DNA from: Arthonia radiata
Taxonomy: Eukaryota > Ascomycota > Arthoniomycetes > Arthoniales > Arthoniaceae
Length of the DNA: 64,000 bases
Assembly: GCA_002989075.1 (NCBI GenBank)
Contig: PSQN01000002.1
Span: 512,097 to 576,096, forward strand
Direction of reading: 5' to 3'
In this document: piece by piece, positions 20,842 through 42,262 of the stretch
How positions within the stretch are numbered: the first letter of the stretch is position 1
How the letters are laid out: each line of letters begins with the position of its first letter
The notes under the pieces: generated by a model
What the model saw: the letters and a program-made list of their open reading frames with translations, nothing else
What the model was told of the DNA's origin: nothing
Database searches by the model: none
Made by a program: the position numbers and the translations under genes

Positions 20842-22593
20842 TGTAACGCCGGTTGCTAGGAGAACCGAACTAAGGCTTACTTACCTTGTGTACTTATTAA
20901 CCTTGGTAGTAGATATCTTGTGTACTAGAGACTAAAAGACAGGAGAGGCGAGATAAATTATAGAAGGTAAGAGAGGCTTAACTAAAGTAAATTGAAGGTA
21001 AAGTACGTTATCTAAATATAGTTAAGAAACTTATATTTAAATATTAAGTTAATAGACTAAAGTTTATTCTAAGGTCGGCTATTAGTTTAGCTATATAGTT
21101 TAAGGTATATAAGAAAATTCCTCTATATATACTAACCTAATAATATCTATATTAGGTTTATAAAGAATATAAGCTTTTATAGCCGTCTTATTCGATAATA
21201 TCTACGTCGGATTTATAGGCTTAGTCGAAAATAATACTAATAAGGCTAAGATAACTAGCGGTAGTTAATACTTAGATATACGTTAGACCGTTTAGAGCTA
21301 GTATTTGTAATACAATTTCCCCTCTTTTAGTTAAATTGTTCTTAATTAACTCTTAGCTTTTTAAATACTTATAAGTTACGTATCGTCCCTTCTTTTGTAA
21401 CTAATTTATAAGTTGCTATACCTCGTATAAAGTCCGTTACTGCGGGTTCTAACAAAAAGTATAGCTAATACCTACTAATTAAAGCCTACGGTATTAAAAT
21501 ACCTTCTTGTTCTAAATATATATTAACTAAGAAAAGGTATATAATTTAGTTTAGAAAGGCGACGTATTTAGTATATACTTGGAACAGAAAGAGTTATAAT
21601 TTATAAGTATTAATAGCAGATAGTATACCTTATTACTGTCTTTCTATAATACTTAGAACTAATTTAGTTGTAGTACTTTCAATTTATTTTAATATTCCTC
21701 TTAATTAGCTGCCCTTTAGCGTACAAAGCGCCAATTACGTGCGTTAAAGGCTTAAATAGTAGCGTTGATTGCAGCTGTATAGCATAACTAATCTAAGATT
21801 TAAAAGTTAAAAGAGAAGGTTAAGAAGACTTATATACGGATAGCAGCGAAGTTAGCTTAAAATAAGTTATTGAAGTAAGAGAAGTTTACTATATTAATAG
21901 CTAGTAGCAATATATTTAAATATTTAAGCGGGTTATTTATTAACTTTCGAAGTAACCTCTATTTAAAGTTAGGTAGTAGTTCTATAACGTAGTAGACTGG
22001 TTCGTTTAAGAGTAACCTAGGTGCTAGCGAGGCGCACTAGATAGTAAATTAGAGTATTAGTGCTGCTACGACCGATTAATATTCTAGTTCTAATATTGTT
22101 AAATAGTGTCTTTATAGTCAATTAGATTTTGTTTCGATTTCTATTAATTTTTATGTTTAGAATATCCTTTTTATTTTATAAGATACTATTGTTTACCTCG
22201 ATATTGTCTATAAGCTTAAATTATTTTAACCTTATACTCGGGTTCTTAGTTATTAAAAAGGATTTCTAGATTGGATCGTTCTGCTTCTTAGACGTAGACT
22301 AGTTTTAACAGCGCTATATAGAATATAGAATATATTCTTATTGCCTTCGGAAGTTTAAGTTTAAAGGTTATAAGTTCTAATTGCTATAGAATTTTAAATA
22401 GTTTTATCTTAGTATAGTTGAGTTCCTTACTTAGTTTAATAGTTTTTAAGTTTCTTATAAGCAAGTAAGCTCTTCTCCCCTCTTTTATGCTTATATTTAG
22501 GATAGTTCTTAACTTATTATACTATTTTCTTGTTCGTTCGTTAATAAACTCGCTGTCTAATTTTAATTGCTAATATAGAGTTTTTATGCTTAC

Positions 22594-22651
22594 TGTTATA
22601 AACCCGTTCTAGGCCCTCCGAGCGCTAGGTCTCCGAGCGCTTGGCGCATTA
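22594..22651 (+). repeat. left 58-bp terminal inverted repeat of the gag/protease element
   Basis: A GC-rich repeat containing the 11-mer CTCCGAGCGCT twice (inner and outer copy). It pairs with 25350-25407. The surrounding sequence is strongly AT-rich. Confidence 0.92.
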
Positions 22652-25349
22652 TTGCAATTTCCGACCAACGTTCCTAATACATTCTAACCGTACCATTGCC
22701 CCTAGCTTTCCTATTTCTAGTTCAGCGCATTTGTTAGGTAATTTAGATCCTCTTAATATATATAAGGGCATCGCCCGACCTCTTGTTCTTGTTCTATATC
22801 TAATCCTCTTTATATCTATAATTAAATAGAGCTCTTAACATTGCGTCCCTGCTGTTATTAGTTTACCCTCTTATACTAAGATTAGATTAAAATTACCGTA
22901 GCGGCCACTACAGTCTGTTATATACAATCTTAACAGCAATTAGTCCTTCTTGTTATTTATTGTTTAGTCGTTCTTAATCCTTAGCTCTAGTCTATACCTA
23001 TAGTGTAGAACTATTATATTAACCCTCCTTTTAAGGCTATAATAGGTTATATAGGCCTTCTAGTCTTGTTAAGTACTTTTAAGTTGTGCTTCCTTTACCT
23101 AAGTTCTATAGAGTGCTTTGTACGCCTATTTATAAGGGTTCTAAGTTCTAGTCCTGCGTTTTAAATCTTAGTTATACTATAGTATAAATTATTCTCTACT
23201 ATACCTCTCCCCTTTGAACAGTCCTCTAAAGAAGCTATTTATGTTAATACGCTTTAAAGCGCTAAAGACTATCTCTAATCTCTAGGCGGCAATACTACGG
23301 CAGCCGCGCAAGAGTTAAGATATTAGTTTAACACAGCCCTCCAACAATATACACAGTCCGAGATATACTAGATCGAGACTAGACTAAGGGAGCTTATAGA
23401 GGCTGTTAGTCAGCTCCAAGCAACCCGTTTAAGTTCTATAGACCGAGAATCTTTCCGCTCTAAATAGAAAACTGTCGTAGATATACCTTAGACCAATCTT
23501 CCTTATAGTCCCTACGGAACGCATAATTCTTCCTCTTCTATGCCTGTAAACGATACTTACGCCCGAGAGTCAACCCCTTTCAATGTTACTAACCAAGCCT
23601 CTAATACAGCTACACGTTCGTAGTTGCCACCCGCTGCACCTCAACTACCTACCTCTAAGTCCGAGCGCGCAGCTAATCCCAAGAAATTCGATGGTCGCCA
23701 GCCTTAGAAGCACCAAGAGTTTGTTAATACTCTTTAAATTAAGCTTATCACTAATTATAATCGATACCCTTCTAAAGAATTTCGCATTAGTTACGGGCTG
23801 TTGATGCTGGAAGGTCCTGCCCTTTTATATTTCCAACAGTTTATCTCTAATCTTGTTAACCGTGTCTAAGCTAGTTACCTTCGTACCTTCAATAACTTCT
23901 TTAGCCTCTTGTATCGACGTTTCGACGATCTAACGCGTACTTAGGACGCGCGTTAATCCCTTATATCTCTCCGCTAGAAGAATAAATCTATTATTGAACA
24001 CCTTTCTACTTTCTAGGAGCTTGTTAACGATAGCTAAATTGTTAATTAAGACCTACTTAAACAACTATTTATAAACAGCCTAAGCAACGAAGCTTTTAAG
24101 GACGTTTGCTACCTCATCTACTATTCTTATAAGCTTAAGCAGCTTATACAAGAACTTACTACTATTATCTACTAAGCTAGCGCAGGTCGTCGTTACCGTG
24201 CTATGCAGTCTAACGGAAATAACTCCTCTGGTCCTAGATTAGCTTCTATTTACTATCCGAATTCTAATGTTTTCCGTCCAAGTAACGGTAACTAAGCTAA
24301 TAAGAGCCGTACCGTTTGTTAGGTCCAGTCAACCCCCGCCAAAGCTAACCAGAATAATAGTATATACGATTACTACGGTTCTACTTCTATGCATCTTAAC
24401 GACAAAAGTCGATATACCCCCGCTAAGCGAACGCGTCGACAAGAACAAGGCCTCTGCCTTGTTTATAGTTCCGACCATTACTACCGCAATAAGTGTCTCT
24501 GTACTCGCTCTACCAACCTTGGTTAATTAGACGAGCTTAATAGTCAAGAGATCTCTGTTCCTTAGCTAGAGCCTAAAAACGAGTTACCTTCTAACTTAGA
24601 AAATATCTAGTCTCTGCACAAAGGCGCGTATAGAGACGTCCTCTACTTATTTCTTTAAATTTACTTTTTCGAGTTCTATTAACTAAAGCTAAAAACATTC
24701 TTTTAGATAATAAGAGAAGTTTTAACCTCGCTTATACTAATATTTAGGCCCGCATTAACTGTTAGGTTTAAATAAAGAATACACTTTATTCTATTTCTAT
24801 CTTTCTTAATTCTAAATGTTTATCCGTTAGATTTATTAATTTGAAGTTTGCGCAACGTTAAGGCTTCTTAATCCGCCGTCTCTATAAGTTCTATATATTA
24901 ACAAACTTTAAGGATAATGCTTGGACCTATACTTAGGTTACCTATACTGTCTGCATTACCTTGTAGGTAGGCTCTTATGTCGAAAGGTCTTGCTACCTTA
25001 TTATTACCAACCTCCCTAATGAACCTATTTTTCTTGGCCTTCTATAGCTAAGAAACTACAACGTTACCTAGCAGTTTGGCTAGAATACCCTTCGTTTCGA
25101 TTCTAATTTCTGTTTCCAGCATTGCGGTATTCTATCTACCGGTACTGCAATTTATGTTATTCCCGATAGTCCCTATAGCTATAAAGAAGAGCCATACGCC
25201 CCTAGTCCTGCTAATTTAAAGCAGATTGACTCTATTGTAAAGAAGCATGGGTTAAGAGTTCGAAAGACGTTAGAGCCCAAACTTAAGAAAAAGGAAGCTA
25301 AGCGGTAAAAGCTTACCTCAGCCCCTTTACCTCCAACCGCCAGCAATCC

Positions 25350-25407
25350 TAATGCGCCAAGCGCTCGGAGGCCCAGCGCTCGGAGGGCCTGGAACGGGTT
25401 TATAACA
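25350..25407 (-). repeat. right 58-bp terminal inverted repeat of the gag/protease element
   Basis: The inverted copy of 22594-22651 with three transition differences. It again contains the doubled 11-mer (as AGCGCTCGGAG) and ends TTATAACA before the target duplication CTTAC. Confidence 0.92.
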
Positions 25408-27900
25408 CTTACAGCTATTCGCGTAGCTGTCTCGTTTTCTATAGTATTTTGTAGTTATCTTCTTTAAAAAGGGTAATAGCTGTATAAGATATAAAACAGA
25501 GTCGTTTTAGTTATATTGTTTTTTGTATTATTGTACGCGGCTTGCGCTACTAGTAGTAATTATACTTAGTCGTTTTACTAGTAGTTAATATATACCCAGA
25601 GATACTATTTTAATGTTTAATTTGTCTGTTCCGTCTATTTGTCTGTTTATAAATAGAATAACGTAGATATCTTCTGTTTTGTTTCTAGTTGTTGTATTAG
25701 AAATATTTAAAATTATAAGACAAATTTTTAGTCTCTGTCTAAGACAATTCTTTGTAGTTAACCGTAGTTTACTAAGATAATCTAAAGAAATATATATACT
25801 AATTGTTCTAAATTGCTAGCTTTCTTATAAGATACAAAATACGCGTACTTTGTTAGTTTGTCGTATATTACTAGAATAGCGTTGTAAGCTACTTCTATAA
25901 GTAAATTCTTAGATATTAGTAGTTTAGTAATAAAGTCTAGTAAGACCGTATACTATAGTCTCTTAAGTATCTCTAGTAATTATAGTTTACTATATAGTAA
26001 ACACTGTAGGTGTTTAATTCTTATATATACATTGTATTCTTAAATATAATTCTCGACGTAGTGTCGGATTCTTAAGATATAATAGATTTGTATAATCTTT
26101 TTAATAGTATTATTAATACTCTTATGTTTCTTTGTTAGGTTATTATAGAAGTTACTAATAATATATTAGATTAGATTTCTTGGAACATAGATTTTACCTT
26201 AAAATTTATAATAGCTCTTATTATTCTTAGTTAGTTTTAGATATTGTTTCTTGTTCTTCTAATAGGTTTTAGAGTTGTTTAGAATATCTAGGATTTAGCT
26301 GTCTGGTTCGATAACAAACTTAATTGTTATTGCTAATTAATTGTATCTAATCTCGTTATTGTATTCTTAGAATATTGTGTGTTCGACGTGTTCCTTGTTA
26401 TTAAGGTAATCGGAACGTTAGCTTAGAGCGTTAGCTTTATTGTTCTTAAAACCCTTCTTATAGATAATAATAAAGTTGTATAGAATTATAGTTTTTAACT
26501 ATCTAACTTGTCTGCAATTAAGTTTCTTTATTATTATAAAGTAAGTTAGATTCTTATAGTTTATATATACTATAATTATATAGTTTGCTTCTTCTAGATA
26601 AGCTTGCTATATCTCGAATACTACTATAATAGCTAAAAGCTTTTTATTGTAAATATTATAGTTCTGTTCTATAAATAATATTTTTTTTAAGTAGAAGGCT
26701 ACTGGTTTAAGCTTTCTTTCCTTGTTATTTTAACTTATATATACTTTAATAGTATAGTCTAATACGTCTGTTTTTATAATAATTAGTAGGTTAGGGTTAA
26801 ATATTGCTAGTACAAGCTCGATCTTAAAAGCTTTCTTAAGCTCTTTAAATACTAACTATTCTTTTTACGTTTAAAAGAATTCTATCGATTGTTTTGTCTA
26901 TTAAGACAGCGGTGCTATAATTTGGCTAAAGTTAGATATCTATCGCCTATAGTAGTTAGCAAAACTAAGAAACTATTGCAATTATTTTATATTCTTTAGT
27001 ATAGGCTAAGTTAGAATAAATTAGATCTTTAAATCTTCTATTTAGAGACCGTACTCGGTAATTATAAATCTAAGAAATTCAACAAATTGTTAGTAAAACT
27101 AGGTTTTTTTGATATTAATTTATAAATCGGTACGTACTAATCTTTCTAATACCTTTTTAATATGTTTTTTATATTCTTTTAGTATACGGCTGTATACTAG
27201 AATATTGTCTAAATAAGTAGTTATAAATATATCTAGGTGATTACTAAGTATATTATTAATTAGTTTCTAAAATAATGCTAATACGTTTATTAGCTTAAAG
27301 AGTATAACGTAATACTTAAAAAGTCTGTATCTAGTATAGAAGGCTGTTTTTTATTCTTTATCTTTCTTTATATAAATTAAGTTATAGGCTCCTTGTAGAT
27401 TAAACTTAGTAAACTATTGCGCGTTATATAATTAATCTATAATTTTGTCGATATATAGTAGCAGATATCGGTTTTTAATAGTTATTCCGTTTAATTGTCT
27501 ATAATCTATATAGAGTCGTAGTTTGTTATTCTTCTTTAGTACAAAGAGTATCGGGTATTCGGCTAGTAATATTAATTTTTAGATAAATCCTTTCTTAAGG
27601 TTTTTATTAAAATAGTTGTAGAGCGCTTAATTTTTTACTTCTAATAGAGAGTATATTAAACTAAATATTAGCGTCTTACCTTTCTATAAAGGTATTATAT
27701 AATCTTATAGTTTATATTTTAAAAGAGCTAAGTTTAGCTTAGGTTTCTTAAATAGATATTAAAATTAATTGTATTCTTTAGGTATCTTAGTAATTAACTA
27801 AGTACTTATCGTTATATAGAATTATTAATATACAGTCGTCTCTTATTTATACTTGTGTATAGTTAGCTATAGATAAAATACTACGTTAGACTTCTCTTAT

Positions 27901-29716: not shown

Positions 29717-29912
29717 TGTAATGCATAAACGTTCCGATAGCGAATTAGAACAGAATGTTGTCTATTTAGGAAGGCTACGATTCTAGAAGAATATCTTTCC
29801 TCTAGTAAATACATTCCTTTCTAGTCTCCTTAATAATTAGCTTAAACACTAGTAGGGCCTATTTAGGTCCTTTTTGCTATCTAACTGCTTTCTGCCTTAT
29901 ACCTAGATTATA
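29717..29912 (+). repeat. 5' LTR (196 bp) of the nested Gypsy element
   Basis: Begins TGTAATGCATAAACG and ends CTAGATTATA. It matches 37534-37729 over its full length, with differences that are mainly C/T or G/A. Confidence 0.88.
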
Positions 29913-32900
29913 TTCTAATTATTCTAAATCTACGAGGAGGGCGGCCGGTAGTTAGGTACCTTATTAACGTCGCTTAGGGGTTAACCCGGTATAATCGAGT
30001 ATAGCCGAGACTCCGTATACACGTTAAAATAAATAATATTAAAATTAATTGATAGTCGGTACTAGTAAGTACCGTATTCGAAGAGAACAAGCAAGAAACT
30101 AAGCACGCGACGGTAGTCGCTTTATATCCGCTACACAAGTAGAATACAGAGCGTAGCAAAATGTAGCCAACGTCGAAGAAGACTAGAACCCTTATATAAG
30201 ATTTAGCGACAACGATAAGCAAGAGAGCTTATAAGCTAGTAAATAGACGTCGAGCAGATCGCAAACTAAGAAGAACGATAGTCTAAACTAAAACAATAAC
30301 AACGACAAAGAGGCTTATTAAGGCTCTAACCGCAAAGAATTCCTCTTTAGCGCCTTCTTAAGCGTTAAGATACGAAAGCTGAGATAAGAACTACTAGTAT
30401 AGCAGTAGCAGTACACTATTAAGAAGCTTAAGCTTAAAAAGGGAATACTCGAAGTTAAGCTTCAGTCTACCTATAATTTAAAAGCTAGTAGCAAGTAGTT
30501 ATAAAGCGATTTAAGCCTTTAAAGCTAGATTAACAAGCTTCTTAAGAAAAAGACGTCTAAGCTTAAGAGAGTTATAGACTCTATAGGCACTTAATAAACT
30601 TAAACTATTAAGAAATGATTTTAGATAGCTAATATATTAGACTTCGACAACGTTTATATTATTACTTAGTACGTTTAAAGACTCTCTAGAGACCTAGTAG
30701 ATAGGTAGTAAACTTATACTAAAGAGAATAAAGAGAAGACGTCGCTCTACATATAAGCGTACTTTAAAGAATAAGTAATAGAATATATTATCGACCTAGC
30801 TACAACTACTACAGCTAACGCAGAAAAGTTCTTTACGTCGATATAGAGTTCGATACAGAAGCTCAAGGACTTTCTAAGCTTTCTATAGAACGAAGAAACT
30901 AAGTTGCTAGGTAGCAAGATACCGGACCTAAATTGAGTCGCATTCTACTACACGCGCTTACCTTTATAGATTAAGGCGAAGCTAATTAAGCAAAGTCTCT
31001 TAAAAAGCCTACTTAAAGACACAAATAAGCTTCTAAAGAAAGTTTATTAATATATAAATATTAATCGTAGTGTATTGCAGGACGCCCGCAACATCAATAT
31101 AAACCGAGATCGCTTTAGTAGCAGATCGAATATAAACTATGACGGTTATAACGCTAGAGCATCTCTACAGAGATTGGGCCGCGGACGAGGCGGTTTATAC
31201 CAAAAATAAGGCAACTTGCCGGTCCGACAAAAAGACAATAGCTCTGCCGCATAAGGGCAACTAGGGTCGATATACAGTAAGGCAAACATTACCTGCTTTA
31301 TATACAATTAGAAAGAGCATTATACTACTAAATGTACTACGCCCCAAACTAGTATCAATTCGACGCTAGTTAAGTAGAGAAACGATAGGCCTCGAGGGTA
31401 AGCTTCGCATTTCTAAAGCTTAAGACTATCGATTAACGGCGAGGACGAATTAAAGTCTCGGTACAGCTAAGTAGGTCGCCGCAAGAGATCCTCGCGCTAA
31501 TAGATTTCAGTACAAAGATTAACCTTATTAATTATTGTATTGTGCTTAAAAGAGGATAGCAAAAATTGTATAGAGTAAAGCTTCTGTATACTAAGTTCTT
31601 TAATAAAAATAAGTTGTAGCTCTACAACGCTTATAACGTAAACGTAACTATAAGAAACGTATATAGAGAGAAACAGTATTACTAACTTTATCTATATTCA
31701 ACTAACTTTATAGAATACAGCCTCGTCTTAGAATACCTATAGCTTAAGTAAGTTGAGCCCTAGATTAGCTAAACAATAAGAACAATCGCTTAGAGAAATC
31801 TTCCTACGCCCGAAGAACGAGTAGTAGGAGCTAAATCTATTGAGATCGTTAATAAAGACGTAATTTTAGTATATTTATAAAGAGACGAACAGTACTACTC
31901 TGCAATCTTATAGATAAGAGCGGATAAACGTTATAAGTATTAAATAGCGGTTCTATTAGACGTTAGTTTGCTACTAGACCGAACCCCGAATAGCGAGCCT
32001 AAGAAAGTAGAGAAGCGAGATAAGCTTCCTTCTTAGTACGCTAAATATAAAAATATCTTTTCTAAAGAACTGTCGAGTAAGCTTGCGCCGCTTAATAAGC
32101 ATACTTATAAAATTAAGCTTAAAGATAGCATAGAACCTCTATATAAGCTAATCTACCCTATATCGTAAGATAAGCTAAAGACGCTCTAAGAGTACCTAAA
32201 TGCTATAATTAAGAAAGGATAAATACAACCCTCTACTAGTTCGGTAGGTGTCTCAGTTCTATTTATACCCAAGACAGACAGATCGTTGAGACTGTATGTT
32301 AACTACCGCGTTTTAAATAATGTAACTATAAAGAATTGCTACGCATTGCCGCTAGTCTCTAAGATTCTTAATCGCCTACAAGGCTTAAAGGTGTTTACAA
32401 AGCTTAATCTTTGTAATGCCTATTACTGTATCTATATCCGTAAAGGAAATAAGTAGAAGACAGCGTTTTATACCCAATATAGGTACTATAAATACCTAGT
32501 GATGCCTTTTAGACTAATAAACGCCTCTGCTACGTTTTAGATATATATCTATAAAGCTATAGGCAATCTTATTAATACTATATATATCGTTTATATAGAC
32601 AATATCTTAATTTTCTCTAAAGACGAGGAAAGCTATAAAGGCTATATTAAAGAAGTCCTACAAAGGCTTTATAAATAGAGTTTATTTATAAAGCTGTTTA
32701 AGTGTTAATTTTATATTACTAAGGTTTCTTTCCTAGAGTTTACCGTAGAAGTTAATAGTATCGAAATAGACTTAGAAAGGGTACAAACTATAGCCAAATA
32801 GCTAGTTTTTACTACCGTAAAGCAGATCCTGTCCTTCTTAGAATTCGTAAACTTCTATTAGCGATTTATCTATAGATTTAGCTGCATTATAGTGTCAATA

Positions 32901-35900
32901 AACGTACTAACGAAAGACATTAAGTTTGTCTAGGGCAAAGTCTAACAAGAAGCTTTTAAAGCGCTAAAGCAAGCCTTTATAAATATACTAGTACTAACGT
33001 ACTTTTACTCGGTACTGTCGATCGTTTTAATAACTAACGTATTAGACTTTATAATAGTAGGTATCTTACTTTAGCTAAGGGAAGATAGCCGATTACTATT
33101 GCCGTTAAATATTAACTTAGACTTGCCTACACTAAATATAGCGGACACCGCCTAAACTAGCATCGATAATAAGGTAGATATATATTTATATTCGATAGCG
33201 TTCTTTTTAAAGAAATTTGTAGACGCTAAGCTAAGATATAATACCTATAATAAAGAGCTTATAACAATATAGACTAGCTTTAAGTACTAGCGCTATTATC
33301 TTATTAATATATAGTACTTAGTAAAGGTCGTAACAGACTACAACAATCTACAGTATTTTATAACAATAAAAGTATTGTCTCGCTAATAGGCGCGCTAAGC
33401 AGAAGATCTGTTAGTATTTAACTTTAAAATACTATACTATACGGATAGTAAGAACCTAGCAGACGCGCCGTCGCGCCGTCTAAATTACAAGAATTTGCGT
33501 AAAGTAAAGAAAGACAACGCTAATAAGATATTGCCGAGCCTATAGTAGAAGCTTAGGAGAGGTATTACTTTGCCTAATGCTAGAGAAGAGCCCTCTAGCC
33601 TAGAAGAAGGTATAATTGCTACCTTAATTATATTGCTTAAAAATTAGTTTGAACACTGTTAGCGGTTTAGCTACCGACTTAAAATACTGAATACGACTAT
33701 AACCTAAATCGGAGGTAGATCGGAGTTAAATACAGACCTTATATAGAACGCCTAGGAGCGAGAAACGTGTCTGTCTTTCTCTACTAATACAGAGCCTTTT
33801 TCGGTAGCTCTTGTATTACGAGTTAAGGTAGTTGTAGCTACCGCTCTTAAAATAGCTTACAATAATACTTCTTAGGGTCTTGCGACCCTAATTCTTAAAG
33901 CTTAGTAGAGAGACGTCTTTATAAAGTAGAAAGTATCGGAGTTAAAATTATTAGCTAGGACTAAAGGTCAGCAGAGTAATAAAACAGCAATAAATCGCCG
34001 TCAAGCTGGTACAAGAAAGCGCTATACGAGTCGAATCGACTTAAATACTTTAATAGGGCTTAACTTAGACTCTAAGTCTCTAAAGTACGTAAAATAGTTA
34101 TTTAATAGCTATAAGTTATTGCGTCAAGGTAGTAAAATTTAGATATTAGAATACTCTACGTTAAAGCTTAAAATTATAAGCAGAAATTATAATAATAAGC
34201 TTGCTGGCTACTTTAAGGTTAAGAAGACCTTTAAAATTCTAAAATACAAATATACTTAGGAAAAGATAGCAACGTATATTAAAAACTTTATTACTAAATA
34301 CAATATATATTAACGAACAGTTATAAAGAGGTATAAGCTATACAGCGAAATAGCGACAATACTAGTCTTAGTTGGCCCCTTTAAGGACCTATCCTTAGAC
34401 TTTATTGTTAAACTACCGATAGTTCTTTTAAAGAATAGAGACATTATTAATTTAATTCTTATAGTTATAGACCGCTTCTCTAAGTTTGTAACCTATATTC
34501 TAGTTAGTAAAACTATAAATGCTATAGAGCTAGTAGAAGTGCTTTATAAACACTAGACAAAAACGTTAGAATTCTTAAGAAGCCTCTTGTCTAATAGAGA
34601 ATCTATGTTTACTAGCTTATATTAGACCACCTTCTGCCAGTATTTAACCGTAAAACGAAGGTTAAGCACAGCATTTTACCCTCAAACTAATAACTAAACC
34701 GAGCGCTAGAACTAGAAGCTTAAAAACTACCTATGTATCTATATCTCTTAGAATTAAGATAATTAGTATAAGTATCTAAAAGAAGCTACTTTTGCGTACA
34801 ATTTAAAAGTTTATTTATTAACAAAAATTTTGTCGATTAAATATACGTTTAGTCGCGTTATAGACGTATTAGACGGCGCGCCGCCGCTAGATCGGTACCG
34901 TACTGTAGTTAAGTTAAACAACCTTTCTATCGGTAAGGATACCTTTCGTTAAGAGGAAAGGTAGCCTAAATTAGAACATTCTATAGCAGTTAAGTATATA
35001 AAAGAACGTTTTCTCTGCTAACAAGAAATAAAGCAGCAGCTAAAAAAAGCTTAGCGTTTATAGACAGAATAGTACAACACTAAGTACACACCAAAATACT
35101 TTGCAGTAGGTAACTTAGTGCTACTGTTGTTAAAGAACCTTAAAACAAAGAGGCCAATAAAGAAGCTCAACGATCGAAGCTTAGGACTATTTAGAATCCT
35201 TAAGAAAGTAGGTAAATAAGCTTACTAGCTGGCACTACTAGACTCCTACCGTATCTACTCTATCTTCTATGTATTCTTACTGGAGCTATATTGCCGTCGG
35301 CCCGGTATAGAACCGCCTGGTCCGATTAAAGTCAATAGTAGTAAAGAATAGCTCGTTAAGGCGATTTACTTTAAGATTAAGAATAAAGACTAGTATTAGA
35401 CTAAGTAGCAGGGGTAGTCGAAGGTAAATAATATAATAGAGCCGCGGACATATCTTAAAGACTCTAACGCTCTTAAGAAATTTAAGAAGCGTAGAGACGC
35501 TGAGCCGAGAGGTAAGCGTCTAAGATAAACTAGGCAACATAGATAAAAAAGAAGTATAAGTCTACGTAATTAGTCTACAATATAACGCTAAAGAGAAGGT
35601 AGATTATCTAAAGTATAGTTTAGAATATAGAATTAGTATAGTATTAAACTTTAAGACTATTTATATATAGTTATAAAGCTTAAGCTATAAGAAAGCTAAA
35701 ATAAGACTTGTATAGAGAGAAAATGTAGAACTATTCCAATAGGCTAAGGAAACCTACTTATACAAACTAAAACTCTAGCCAAATAAAAGATAGAAAACTA
35801 CGAGAAGACTATCTAAACTAGTACCAAAGTTAGTACGGATCGGCGGTATAATACTACTTAACCTAGCCGCAATTATCGTTGACGCGGTTCTAAATTTAAT

Positions 35901-37533
35901 TAATTAGATCTACTATAGCTAGCTTGTAAGGAGCTTTATTCGTAGGTAGCTAAGGGCCGTACAACCCTATACTAGAATCGAAGCTCTAGCGTAGCGCCTT
36001 AATATACTTAAAATCGTTAGTATCGGTCTACTCGACCGACTTAGTACTTAGACCACGCTACTAGGCCTACAGCTAAACGTAAAAGGCGCGAAGCAGAGTA
36101 AGATAGTCGTCGTAGAAAGACTCTTTGTTATCTTAGACGTCCTTACTAGAGGTTAAGAAGAAGTTAGCGCGTACGAGAAGGTTGTAGGTACGTCTCTATC
36201 GAGCGAGAACCTAGTATACGTTAATATAGGGTTAATTAGTATCTAAGACGAAAGAGTATTAGACTTACTATCTTATACTTGTCTTTTCACCTCTTACTAC
36301 TAGTACAGCGAGTATACTTGGCGTACTGTCTCTTAGGCTACTCGCAGGTCTAGTTCTTATAATACTTAAAATTAGAGTTTATAGAAGAACTACTACGTAC
36401 AGCTATATTGCTAAATAAGGCCTTTATACAACGGCAGCATACTAAGACGTAAGTCTCTAGCTAAGGCTAAATTAACGCAGATACGGCGCAAAAAGCAGGA
36501 TTCGAGGAGATAGACCGGCAAAACTTTATAGACGACTTAGACTTATAAGTAGTACCGCAGTAATAGAAAGAACAGACAATCTTATTATTATTAGAGTCGT
36601 CTTTACAGACGTAACGCTTTTAACGAGCTAAAATGCTAATATTTAGACTAAAATAAAGTAATAAGAGATAGTAAACTTACAAGGAGTCGTAAAAGTTAGA
36701 GACACGCTACTTAGTTTAAGAGAGCGTAAACTAAGAGAAGCTATAGATAATTTAGAAATTAGTAAAGCAATCTTAAGAGCTTTCTTCTTGCGGACATTAT
36801 AAAAAAAAGCTTTAAGATTAACGGCGGCTTTAGAGTCCTTAATACCGTAAGTTAAGCGGCGAGTTAGCGCTTTAGAAGAGCTCGCTCTAGCAGCGGGTTT
36901 GTTAACAGGGTTAAAACTCGATATAGTAGAGATTATAAAGATAAATTAGAGGCAATCTGACACTAGATTAGCTACAAACTTATTACTTAAGAAGAGAAGT
37001 AAAGGCCTATTAGAAAAGAAAAGCTTGTAGACTAAGTAGAAGAGTATAATAATATTAAAGAAAGAAAGAGAAAGTTTAAAAGAGCAAGAGCCTTATTTTA
37101 TATCTATCGTTAGGTACCGATAACAAAGCTTCCGCCTACAGATACTAATATAGAAGCAAAGAAGCCTATTTACGTAGGTTGCTACTACCTATAGGGGCAA
37201 TTAATTGGTAAAAGCGTATATAAGAGTATACAAAAGAATATAAAATTAGGTAAAAATAATATATAACCTTACTACCGAGCTTATAACTTAGACTTAAGAG
37301 CTTTAAATTAAAAGTAAAGCTTAGCACTATAACTTAGTACTACAGAAAATTAGCACTAAACGACGTATAGAATGATAGTAAGCAATATTACTCTTTTTCT
37401 AACTAAACGTAGATATAAGTCAGCAGGTTTTTAATAAGGTTATTGCTCTACGTAAGACAATAAATAGAAGGTACGATAGAGATAGCGGATTGCACTCAGA
37501 TCAAGAACAATCCTTCTTAAGAGGGAAGGCAGT

Positions 37534-37729
37534 TATAATGTATAAACGTCTCGATAACGAATTAAGACAGAATATTGTCTATTTAAGAAGGCTGCGATCC
37601 TAGAAGAATATCTTTTCTCTAGTAAACGCATTCCTTTCTAGTCTCCTTAATAATTAGCTTGAACACTAGTAGGGCCTATTTAGGCCCTTTTTGCCACCTA
37701 ACTGCTTTCTGTCCTACACCTAGATTATA
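37534..37729 (+). repeat. 3' LTR (196 bp) of the nested Gypsy element
   Basis: Begins TATAATGTATAAACG (TG end altered to TA, a RIP-type change) and ends CTAGATTATA, followed by the duplication TATAA. Confidence 0.88.
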
Positions 37730-40197
37730 TATAAGAGCATTAATAACACTATAGAAAAGATTATAAGAACCTACTATATTCCGAGAATCTAACATTATAT
37801 CGAGAATTATATCTAAGAATGCAACGTATATGTAAGAACTAAGTACTTAAAATATTTACTATATAGTAAATTATAGCTACTAAAGATATCTAAAAGGCTA
37901 TAATATACAGTCTTACTAAACTTTATTACTAAATTACTAACGTCTAAGGACCTACTAACAGAAGTAGCTTACAATGCTATTCTAGTTATATACAACAAAC
38001 TAACAAAGTACGCGTACTTCGTACCTTACAAGAAAGCTAGCAACTTAGAATAATTAGTATATATCTTCCTTTATATTATCTTAGCTAACTATAAATAACC
38101 TCAAAGAATTATCTTAGACAGAGACTAAAAATTTATCTTACGATTTTAAATATTTCTAATACAACAACTAAGAACGAAACAGAAAATATTTACGTTGTTT
38201 TACCTGCAAACAGACAGACAAACAGAACGAATAAATTAAACACTAGAATAGTATCTCTAAGTATATATTAACTATTAGTAAAATAACTAGATATAGTTAC
38301 TACTAGTTGCGCAAGCCGCGTATAATAATACAAAGAACGATACAACAAAAACAACTCCGTTCTATATACTGTATAGCTACCACCCTCTTTAGAGCAGACA
38401 ACTATAGAGTACTATAGAAAATAAAATAGCTACGCGAATAGCTATTAACATAAAAACTCTATATCAGTAGTTAAAGTCTAACAGCGAGTTTATTAACAAA
38501 CGAACTAGAAGTTAGTATAATAAGTTAAGAATAACTCTAAATGCAAGCATAAAGGAAAGAAGAAGAGCTTACTTATTTATAAGAAACTTAAAAACTATTA
38601 GACTAAGCAAGAAACTTAACTATATTAAAATAAAACTGTTTAAAATCTTATAGCAATTAAGATCTATAATATTTAAGCTTAAACTCCTAAAGACAATAAA
38701 AATATATTCTGTATTCTACGTAGCGCTGTTAAAACTAGCCTACTCTTAAGAAGTAGAACGACTCAACCTAGAAATCCTTTCAGACAACTAAGAACCCGAG
38801 TATAAGGTCGAAATAATTCGAGCTTATAGACAATACCGAGGTAAACAACAGTATCTTATAAAATGAAAAGGATACTCTAAATACAAAAATTAATGGAAAT
38901 CGGAATAAAACCTAACTAACTATAAGAACACTATTTAACAGTATTAGAACTAGAATATTAATTAGTTGTAGTAGCACTAATACTTTAATTTACTATCTAA
39001 TATACCTTGCTAGTATTTAAATTACCCTTAAACGAACTAGCTTACTACGTTATAGAACTACTATTTAACTCTAAATAGAGGTTACTCTAAAAGTTAATAG
39101 ATAACCTACTCGAACATTTAAATATATCGCTATTAGCTATTAACGTAGTAAACTTCTCTTGCTTCAATAACTTATTTTAAGTTAACTTCGCTGCTATCTA
39201 TATATAAGTCTTCTTAACCTTCTCTTTTAACTTCTAGATCTTAAATTGGTTACGCTGCATAGCTGCAACTAACGCTGCTATCTAAGCCTTTAACGTATAT
39301 AATTAGTGCTTTGTACGCTAAAGAGCAGCCGACTAAAAGAAATATTGAGAATAAACCGAACGCGCTGCAACTAAGTTAGTCTTAGATATTATAGAGAGAC
39401 AGCAATAAGGCATACTATCTACTATTAATACTTATAAATTATAACTCTTCCCGTCCCGAGTATATACTAAATACGTCGTCTTTCTAAACTAAACTATATA
39501 CCTTTTCTTAGTCGATATATATCTAAAATAAGAAGGTATTTTAATAACGTAAGCTTTAATTAGCAGGTATTAACTATACTTTTTGTTAAGACCTATAGTA
39601 ACGGACTTTATACGAGGTATAGCGACTTATAGATTAGTTACAAAAAAGAGGAACGATATATAACTTATAGGTGTTTAAAAAGCTAAGAGTCAATTAAGAA
39701 CAATTTAACTAGAAAAGAAGAGATTGTATTATAAATACTAGCTTTAGACGGTCTAGCGCGTATCTAAGTATTAACTACCGCTAGTTATTTTAGTCCTACT
39801 AGTATTATTTCCGACTAAGCCTATAAACCCGTTGTAAGCATTATTAAATAAAATAGCTATAAAAGTCTATATTTCTTATAAACCTAATATAAATATTGTT
39901 AAATTAGCGGATACAGAGGAATTTCTCTATATACCTTAGACTATATAGCTAAACTAATAGCTGACCTTAAAATAGACTTTAGTCTATTAACTTAATATTT
40001 AAATATAAGTTTCTTAACTATATTTAAGTAACGTACTTTACCTTCTATCTACTTTAGTTAAGCCCCTCTTACTCTTTATAATCTATTTCGCCTCTCCTGC
40101 CTTTTAGTCTCTAGCATACAAGACAACTACTACTAAGGTCGATAAGTATATAAGGTAAGTAAGCCTTAGTTCGGTTCTCTCAGCGACCGGCGTTACA

Positions 40198-42262
40198 GTA
40201 TCGTAGTTACTATCTTGCTTAGCTTCTATAGTCTATTCTTTCTTAAATTCCCCTTGAATTTCTAAATAAAATAATCTAAGTCGTTCTTGAGTAAGGCCTA
40301 GTTCTTATATTAAACCTTATTTTAAAGATATTGGTTTTCTTAGCTATTATTCTGATTTTAATTTATTAAATTTATAAATTGTACAATCGTTATTATAGTA
40401 TACAGTTTAGAATAGTGTTTTGTATAGTGCAACAGTATCTTATATCTACTACCTTAGAATAGTGCGGTTAATATTTTTTCAGTTCTATAGATTTTATTGT
40501 TTCTATTTTATTTATTGTTTCTTTGTTTCTTTTTATAACTTACTGTCTGTATTCTAGTTCTTATACAAATTAAACAAGTTTTATTTGTTATACTTCTCGT
40601 TAGAAGTGACCTAGTAAGTATTTTTCTAGTCGCAGAAGGCACCTTAGTAGATACTCTTCTGCTTTTTAGTTAATTTAGTAACATACTTATACCAGTTCTA
40701 GTTATTCTTAAGTAAAAGTTTTAACGCTTAAAGAAGACGACCCTTAGTTAAGTTTATATATCAGCGGTCGGAGAAGGCTGCTAGCAATTCTATTGTCTTA
40801 TTGCGACCGTCGTTCTCCTATATTTAAGTAGTTATATTAAACTATTGTCGTAGAAAATAGAGTTTCTAAGATCGATTGTTGTATCTGTTTCTACTAGTAC
40901 TATTAAACTATTATTGTTTAGAACGGTATTCTTTAACTTAATGCCCTAGTTTTCCGTAATATAAGTATAGCTTGTTCTTTATTTTATGTTCTCGTTTCTA
41001 GTTGTTTAGTTTTCTATAAGGCTTTATAAAATTTAATTTTATTAGATTACCCCGGTCTTATTGTAAGTTATACTTACTCTAAGTTTAAACTAACTTACCT
41101 AGGTTAGCCTCTTTCTTCTCTAACTGTCGTTTAAAGTTGCTGTTATCGATTTTCTTAGCTTGTTTTATAAACTTTTCTAGTTTAGTAAACTTCTCTTTAT
41201 AAATATAGATAATTTCCTTAATACAGTTCTTTAAGCCTTTATAAAAGATATTAACTAAGGGTTCTTTATTCTATCTAGTTTAATTAGCATATTATAGAAA
41301 CTTAGCGGCGTATCGGCTAGCTGGTTCTATCTAACAGAGTATCTTAAGTTTACGTATAGCGGTACATTTAGAATCGATATTCCTATACATCTATCGAAGC
41401 TTTTACTAAAACGTAGTAAAGCTAAAGAAGAGTTTGTCGGTCTTCTTATATTGTTTGTTAGGTGTCTTATAGAGATAGTCTTTAAAGTAAAAGTTAAACT
41501 ATTTATATACCTCACTATTTATATAGAATATAGTAAATAAAACTATAGTACTATTATTTAGAAACTAATCTTTATAAGTTTTAAAGTATATAGCTAAGCG
41601 TATTAAAAATAAAGTAAGTTTAAAACGTTTATCTAAAAAGCTTTTATTTATCTTAGTATTAACATTTAATATCTTATTTATAGTAGCTATCTTATTAGCT
41701 AGCCTATTTATAGCGTTGCGGCTATTAAGTACTAAAGTAGTAGATATAATTAATCTACTTTCTCTACTTTTATAGCAAGTCTGTTAAAGTATAATGCCGG
41801 TCGCTAAAAGAACTAAACTAAGGCTTACTTACCTTATATACTTATCGACCTTAGTAGTAGGTATCTTATATACTAAAGACTAAAAGATAGAAGAGGCGAG
41901 ATAGATTATAAAAGGTAAGAGAAGCTTAACTAAAGTAGATAAAAGATAAAGTACGTTACTTAAATATAGTTAAGAAACTTATATTTAAATGTTAAGTTAA
42001 TAGACTAAAGTCTATTCTAAGGTCGGTTATTAGTTTAGCTATATAGTCTAAGGTATACAAAAAAGTTTCTCTATATCTGCTAACTCGACAATACCTATAT
42101 TAGGTTTATAGAGAATATAGGCCTTTATAGCCGTCTTGTTCGATAATGCCTACAGCGGGTTTATAGGCTTAGTCGGGAATAATGCTAATAGAGCTAAGAT
42201 AACTAGCGGTGGTTAATACTTAAATGTACGCTAGGCCGTCTAGAGCTGGTACCCGTAATACT
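40198..42262 (-). mobile_element. Ty3/Gypsy fossil fragment D: pol 3' end, 301-bp LTR, gag (inverted)
   Basis: Read on the minus strand, about 170 bp of pol 3' region (42,262-42,091) leads into a 301-bp LTR (42090-41790) and then gag-like sequence down to 40198, where it abuts the LTR of fragment C. A single LTR between a pol end and a gag start is the arrangement of a tandem array or one-LTR circle. Mirror image of fragment A over the gag and LTR parts. Broken. Confidence 0.72.

Follow-up and report, generated by a model that had tools for sequence, protein, structure and literature searches.

A 2,814-bp insertion with a Gypsy-type gag and integrase-like inverted ends in Arthonia radiata

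A single, bounded insertion of 2,814 bp, with inverted ends and a Gypsy-type gag as cargo, was found in a 64-kb window of Arthonia radiata DNA (the window being the whole stretch of 64,000 nucleotides that was analysed); its structure is sound and unusual. We suggest, with a probability of roughly 45%, that it is non-autonomous mobile DNA whose two U3-like ends are nearly alike and are acted on in trans by a retroviral-type integrase, from a Gypsy or a Ginger2/Tdd-like element. The integrase in trans, the repeated family to which the element would belong and its protease are all things that we infer; the features themselves are listed in Table 1.

Table 1. Features of the insertion and of its target, in positions of the window.
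Feature	Position	Strand	Basis
Target duplication CTTAC, left copy	22589..22593		sequence and empty site
Left 58-bp terminal inverted repeat, TGTTA start	22594..22651	+	arm comparison
Leader, TATA-like stretch at 22757, LTR-like TTAACA ending 22840	22652..23203	+	by-eye reading
Gag frame: capsid, knuckle-like stretch near 24450-24500, 22 in-frame TAA/TAG	23204..24628	+	start inferred
Second frame, -1 step relative to gag, protease-like by motif only	24649..25308	+	TAA 25306-25308
Right 58-bp terminal inverted repeat, ATAACA end, 15-bp unit twice	25350..25407	-	arm comparison
Target duplication CTTAC, right copy	25408..25412		sequence
Empty site, inverted Gypsy paralogue	38438..38450	-	flank alignment

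The two arms are complementary, in inverted orientation, at 55 of 58 positions, which at fixed ends has a chance probability of about 6e-28 (simple binomial), and the complementarity stops abruptly after position 58. Two of the three mismatches are of the RIP type (CpA or TpG to TpA), and one is a change of CpC to TpC. The element begins with TG and ends with CA, and CTTAC flanks it on the left and on the right as a 5-bp target duplication; the near-perfect 58-bp inverted repeats, the TG...CA ends and the CTTAC duplication had all been claimed by the initial annotation and are borne out. The 15-bp unit that is tandemly repeated in the right arm is also present in the left arm, where it carries the arm's few differences. 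Folding of the right arm was not unusual (z -0.37), and no direct copy of either end was found in the element or the window. When 18.0-43.5 kb was scanned for sequences that start with TG, have inverted ends matching perfectly over 12 nt and are flanked by identical 5-bp duplications, the insertion was the sole match.

Elsewhere in the window lies an inverted paralogue of the flanking Gypsy (21691-22588 corresponds to 39346-38449, and 25413-26125 to 38443-37731), to which the joined flanks align without an internal gap, indicating that the insertion is real and its ends exact. The paralogue bears no trace of ever having carried the insertion. Its five bases at the empty site, TTAAT, differ from CTTAC at three of five positions, and the single site is therefore fixed by the flank alignment and not by those letters. 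The target is the integrase gene of a decayed, older Gypsy: on the minus strand, the right flank matched Integrase_H2C2 (Pfam, E=3.4e-6) and the left flank matched SH3_Tf2-1, a Tf2-type SH3 domain, under the Pfam cut-off (E=2.4e-4). Ends, duplication and gapless paralogue together confirm the proposal of a genuine bounded insertion, and the two flank matches, one of them below cut-off, agree with the proposal that Gypsy integrase sequence lies on either side.

Between 18000 and 44000 the surrounding DNA is AT-rich, with a GC of 0.23-0.43 per kb, and bears RIP marks (TpA/ApT reaches 2.43); this block is sharply bounded, and the DNA around it is gene-rich, with a GC of 0.49-0.60. One Gypsy family makes up a giant palindrome at 19172-42262, centred at about 27919, with inner arms 52 nt apart and aligned blocks 78-86% alike. 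As read, its order is truncated 5' LTR and gag, inverted 3' LTR-IN-RT, centre, RT-IN-3' LTR, and inverted gag and 5' LTR, with outward-facing 5' LTRs on both sides; it could have originated from duplicated nested opposite insertions or from an autointegration-type inversion. LTR copies of about 475 bp lie in inverted orientation, 1.6 kb apart, at 39725-40200 and 41788-42262, the 3' LTR end directly adjoining the putative gag; the gag-like frame of this palindromic Gypsy had no Pfam match. The left palindrome arm has the same order and is about 158 bp shorter at the 3' LTR/gag junction. Inserted in the right palindrome arm is an 8-kb Gypsy (29717-37729) with LTRs of about 196 bp and with RT and RNase H by Pfam; it is flanked by CATAA and TATAA, and the other arm shows the site without the insertion.

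To analyse the cargo, the decayed frames were searched against Pfam with X at stops. The gag frame then matched Retrotrans_gag (E=4e-5, 24.2 bits, cut-off 24.1) and, below cut-off, Ty3_capsid (E=3.4e-4); with its TAA and TAG codons translated as Q, the frame gave 6.9e-8 for Retrotrans_gag and 8.3e-7 for Ty3_capsid (29.0 bits, cut-off 29.1). A Gypsy-type gag is thus supported by Pfam. All 22 in-frame stops of this gag are TAA or TAG, as expected from RIP. The second frame has nine in-frame stops besides its terminal TAA, which is a possible natural stop about 40 bp upstream of the right arm. By motif we read this frame as a putative retropepsin; neither profiles (Pfam, NCBIfam) nor PDB sequences nor fold comparison supported the reading, and the control, the protease frame of the 8-kb Gypsy, was equally silent. 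The knuckle-like stretch had no Pfam match and deviates from what we take to be canonical zinc-knuckle spacing. Of the three remnants proposed earlier, gag therefore stands, the knuckle is not upheld, and the protease is kept as a motif-level reading for which the control was missed too. The accompanying proposal that the element packages itself would depend on a gag with 22 stops and a putative protease.

Relatives of these frames were sought in several ways. The best blastp matches to the Gypsies of the window (E=0.71 for gag, E=0.10 for the protease frame) were not taken as real, nor was the best tblastx match (E=0.038), and phmmer returned none. The gag frame had no relative in PDB sequences or in plasmids, and in viral_contigs the frames gave 2 and 17 peptide-pattern stretches, 0 of them confirmed; the results for plasmids and viral_contigs are uninformative on fungi. 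AlphaFold models made without relatives had a mean pLDDT of 46.0 for the second frame and 38.5 for gag and were set aside; Foldseek with the second frame gave 979 matches at E<=10, 0 at E<=0.001, the top one being unrelated. Matches of gag to DUF5930 and of the second frame to a VEGFR-type Ig model were below cut-off, at chance level, and were rejected. Rfam had no match in the element.

No RT or RNase H was detected by Pfam across the six frames of the element, scanned piecewise. RT was found, with X at stops, in the two decayed Gypsies of the window (2e-19 in the 8-kb Gypsy and 7.4e-15 in the palindromic one), so the missing RT is a sound negative. An integrase domain had no Pfam match in the element either; the known integrase core of the neighbouring 8-kb Gypsy was, however, missed too, and in that Gypsy protease, integrase core and gag were all without a true match, so that little can be read from the missing protease and integrase matches of the element. 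The argument from space is stronger: gag and the second frame fill all but a 552-bp leader and about 40 bp at the right, and therefore leave no room for an integrase. The leader had no domain in the frames scanned, and no transposase domain was found in the scanned frames of the element. The undetected RT, with its positive controls, and the lack of room for an integrase agree with the initial annotation, which had placed neither polymerase nor integrase inside.

Within the 64-kb window one copy only was found. When the window was searched by BLAST with the ends and with the complete element, just the two arms came back, apart from short matches at chance level, and a 16-nt end pattern, allowing up to 4 mismatches, occurred at 8 places, namely the 2 arms with 0 mismatches and 6 others with 4. 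An 18-nt resemblance at 39822 and 42165 falls inside the LTRs of the flanking Gypsy and was taken for chance, as were 34 prokaryote loci found with an 18-nt pattern, whose longest match to the 58-bp right end was 22 nt. Exact end patterns were absent from viral_contigs, which was expected and is uninformative on fungi. A helper of the element would have TGTTATAAACCCG ends; the two Gypsy families of the window start with TGTAATGC and TGTATTAC, and the suggested partner family with matching terminal bases was not found there. In the openly accessible literature consulted, no title or opening of an abstract describes a gag element with inverted ends.

The history of the element as a repeat was approached through RIP, using as an index CA+TG as the share of CA+TG+TA. 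In the host genes to either side this index was 0.81; inside the element it was 0.36 for gag, 0.30 for the second frame and 0.22 for the leader, and the two flanks had 0.19 and 0.24. The outer 200 bp of each end were less RIPped than the middle (31/65 versus 143/465, p=0.011, one of two comparisons), and the arms alone did not differ significantly from the rest of the element (p=0.18). Lesser change in the outer 200 bp argues against leakage of RIP from the flanks, which would give the opposite slope, and suggests that relatives of the inside, sister copies or a parental Gypsy, probably existed elsewhere in the genome. A parental Gypsy with the same gag would explain RIP of the inside equally well.

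Retroviral-type integrases leave TG...CA ends and a 5-bp duplication, and the ends of the element therefore fit such an enzyme, which was most likely supplied in trans because none is apparent inside. An integrase made elsewhere, by a Gypsy element or a Ginger2/Tdd-like transposon, would bind both 58-bp ends, where the tandem 15-bp units may be its binding sites, and would join the two ends to staggered target strands, producing the CTTAC duplication in the older Gypsy integrase gene. The cargo, a Gypsy-type gag and a probable protease frame, was probably taken from a retrotransposon, and RIP would have broken the genes of the element after insertion. The earlier proposal of a Gypsy integrase in trans is thus supported as to the type of enzyme, by ends and duplication length, and the helper would be either Gypsy or Ginger2/Tdd-like. 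More specifically, a repeated fungal gag or gag-protease family with inverted U3-like ends, packaged into particles by its own gag, moving as DNA or cDNA by means of a Gypsy integrase in trans and standing as an intermediate between Gypsy and Ginger, seems to us doubtful.

The same structure may have arisen only once, from an aberrant Gypsy cDNA that had acquired U3 sequence at each of its ends, perhaps when reverse transcription switched templates, and that integrated a single time. The layout would then be a 5' LTR at 22594-22840, followed by gag and protease and, on the right, by 58 bp of reversed U3. We hold this to be possible, if on balance unlikely. By eye, the left 247 bp are LTR-like (TG start, TATA-like stretch, TTAACA at the end), and an LTR of 247 bp is plausible beside neighbours of about 196 and 475 bp; the gag cargo is in the usual order, and just one copy was found in the window. 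The possibility that the leftmost ~250 bp are simply an LTR of the usual kind counts against the explanation that we favour. Beyond the 58 bp, however, there is no second LTR copy in either orientation, no TGG-type primer site follows TTAACA (by eye, none was seen in the neighbouring Gypsies either), and a stop near the right arm would be coincidental. A self-priming complement was not found in the leader, a test that was uninformative on known Gypsies as well. A family history would fit the tandem 15-bp unit and the possible stop that lies about 40 bp from the right arm. A single aberrant Gypsy cDNA fits the evidence nearly as well as a class of elements does, and we lean slightly towards a repeated non-autonomous family.

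Other origins appear less probable. Capture of a gag fragment by an ordinary cut-and-paste DNA transposon, one of the known superfamilies, would account for inverted repeats and a target duplication, yet no transposase domain was detected, and TG...CA ends with 5 bp are off the pattern of the usual fungal superfamilies (Tc1/mariner, TA; hAT, 8 bp; piggyBac, TTAA; MULE, about 9 bp); we regard it as improbable. Less far-fetched, though still rather unlikely, is an origin by internal deletion from something larger with inverted ends, which could be an autonomous transposon of the Ginger type or, as in the palindrome, a Gypsy composite in inverted arrangement whose 5' LTRs face outward on both sides. 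The window itself contains such a composite, and the TGTNR ends and the length of the inverted repeats agree with Ginger as described in PMC2836005; against this, the element has no trace of integrase, the window holds no larger relative, and the LTR ends of the palindrome differ from those of the element. Chance or an assembly artefact, for which we found no supporting point, can be practically dismissed given the match between the arms at fixed ends and the empty paralogue.

The integrases of LTR retrotransposons and the transposases of Ginger elements are related, and the element touches on the question of how elements shift between RNA copying and DNA movement. If a true family exists, class I cargo would be joined to class II ends, the combination of gag with inverted ends of the integrase type would make the element a direct intermediate, and inverted-repeat DNA would seem to be mobilised in trans by Gypsy integrases in nature. 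If the element is a single accident, it would suggest that two U3-like ends suffice for paired 5-bp integration in a fungal cell.

Among known systems, Gypsy (Ty3) LTR retrotransposons share with the element the gag capsid, the TG...CA ends, the 5-bp duplication and a protease-like frame after gag; in contrast to them, its ends are inverted, and it has no direct LTRs and no detected RT. TR-GAG and LARD elements of plants have direct terminal repeats and gag-type cargo or none, without a polymerase; the element resembles them in carrying gag without polymerase and differs in that its terminal repeats are inverted. DIRS elements have inverted termini and a tyrosine recombinase and make no target duplication, whereas the element, likewise with inverted termini, duplicates 5 bp. 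The misfit to LTR elements, TR-GAG and DIRS that the initial annotation had asserted is accordingly confirmed by the absence of direct repeats and of a detected RT and by the 5-bp duplication.

The misfit that it asserted to Ginger was too strong. Gypsy, Ginger1 and Ginger2 share the terminal pattern TGTNR, and Ginger2 has inverted repeats of about 50-180 bp (PMC2836005); the TGTTA of the element fits the former, its 58 bp fall within the latter, and its joining is of the integrase type. Its 5-bp duplication is as in TDD-4/5, Ginger2/Tdd otherwise making 4-bp duplications at an RTATAY-like target, from which CTTAC, the only site available, departs (PMC2836005). Non-autonomous Ginger1 copies and a vestige of Ginger2/Tdd in the fungus Malassezia globosa are reported there as well (PMC2836005). 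What does set the element apart from Ginger2/Tdd, besides its target, is that it carries gag and has no integrase inside (there being no room for one; the Pfam scan alone is weak on this point), and from Ginger1 it differs in its CTTAC target, that of Ginger1 being CCGG/CCGT (PMC2836005). The element thus works like an integrase substrate, and we file it under none of the groups compared.
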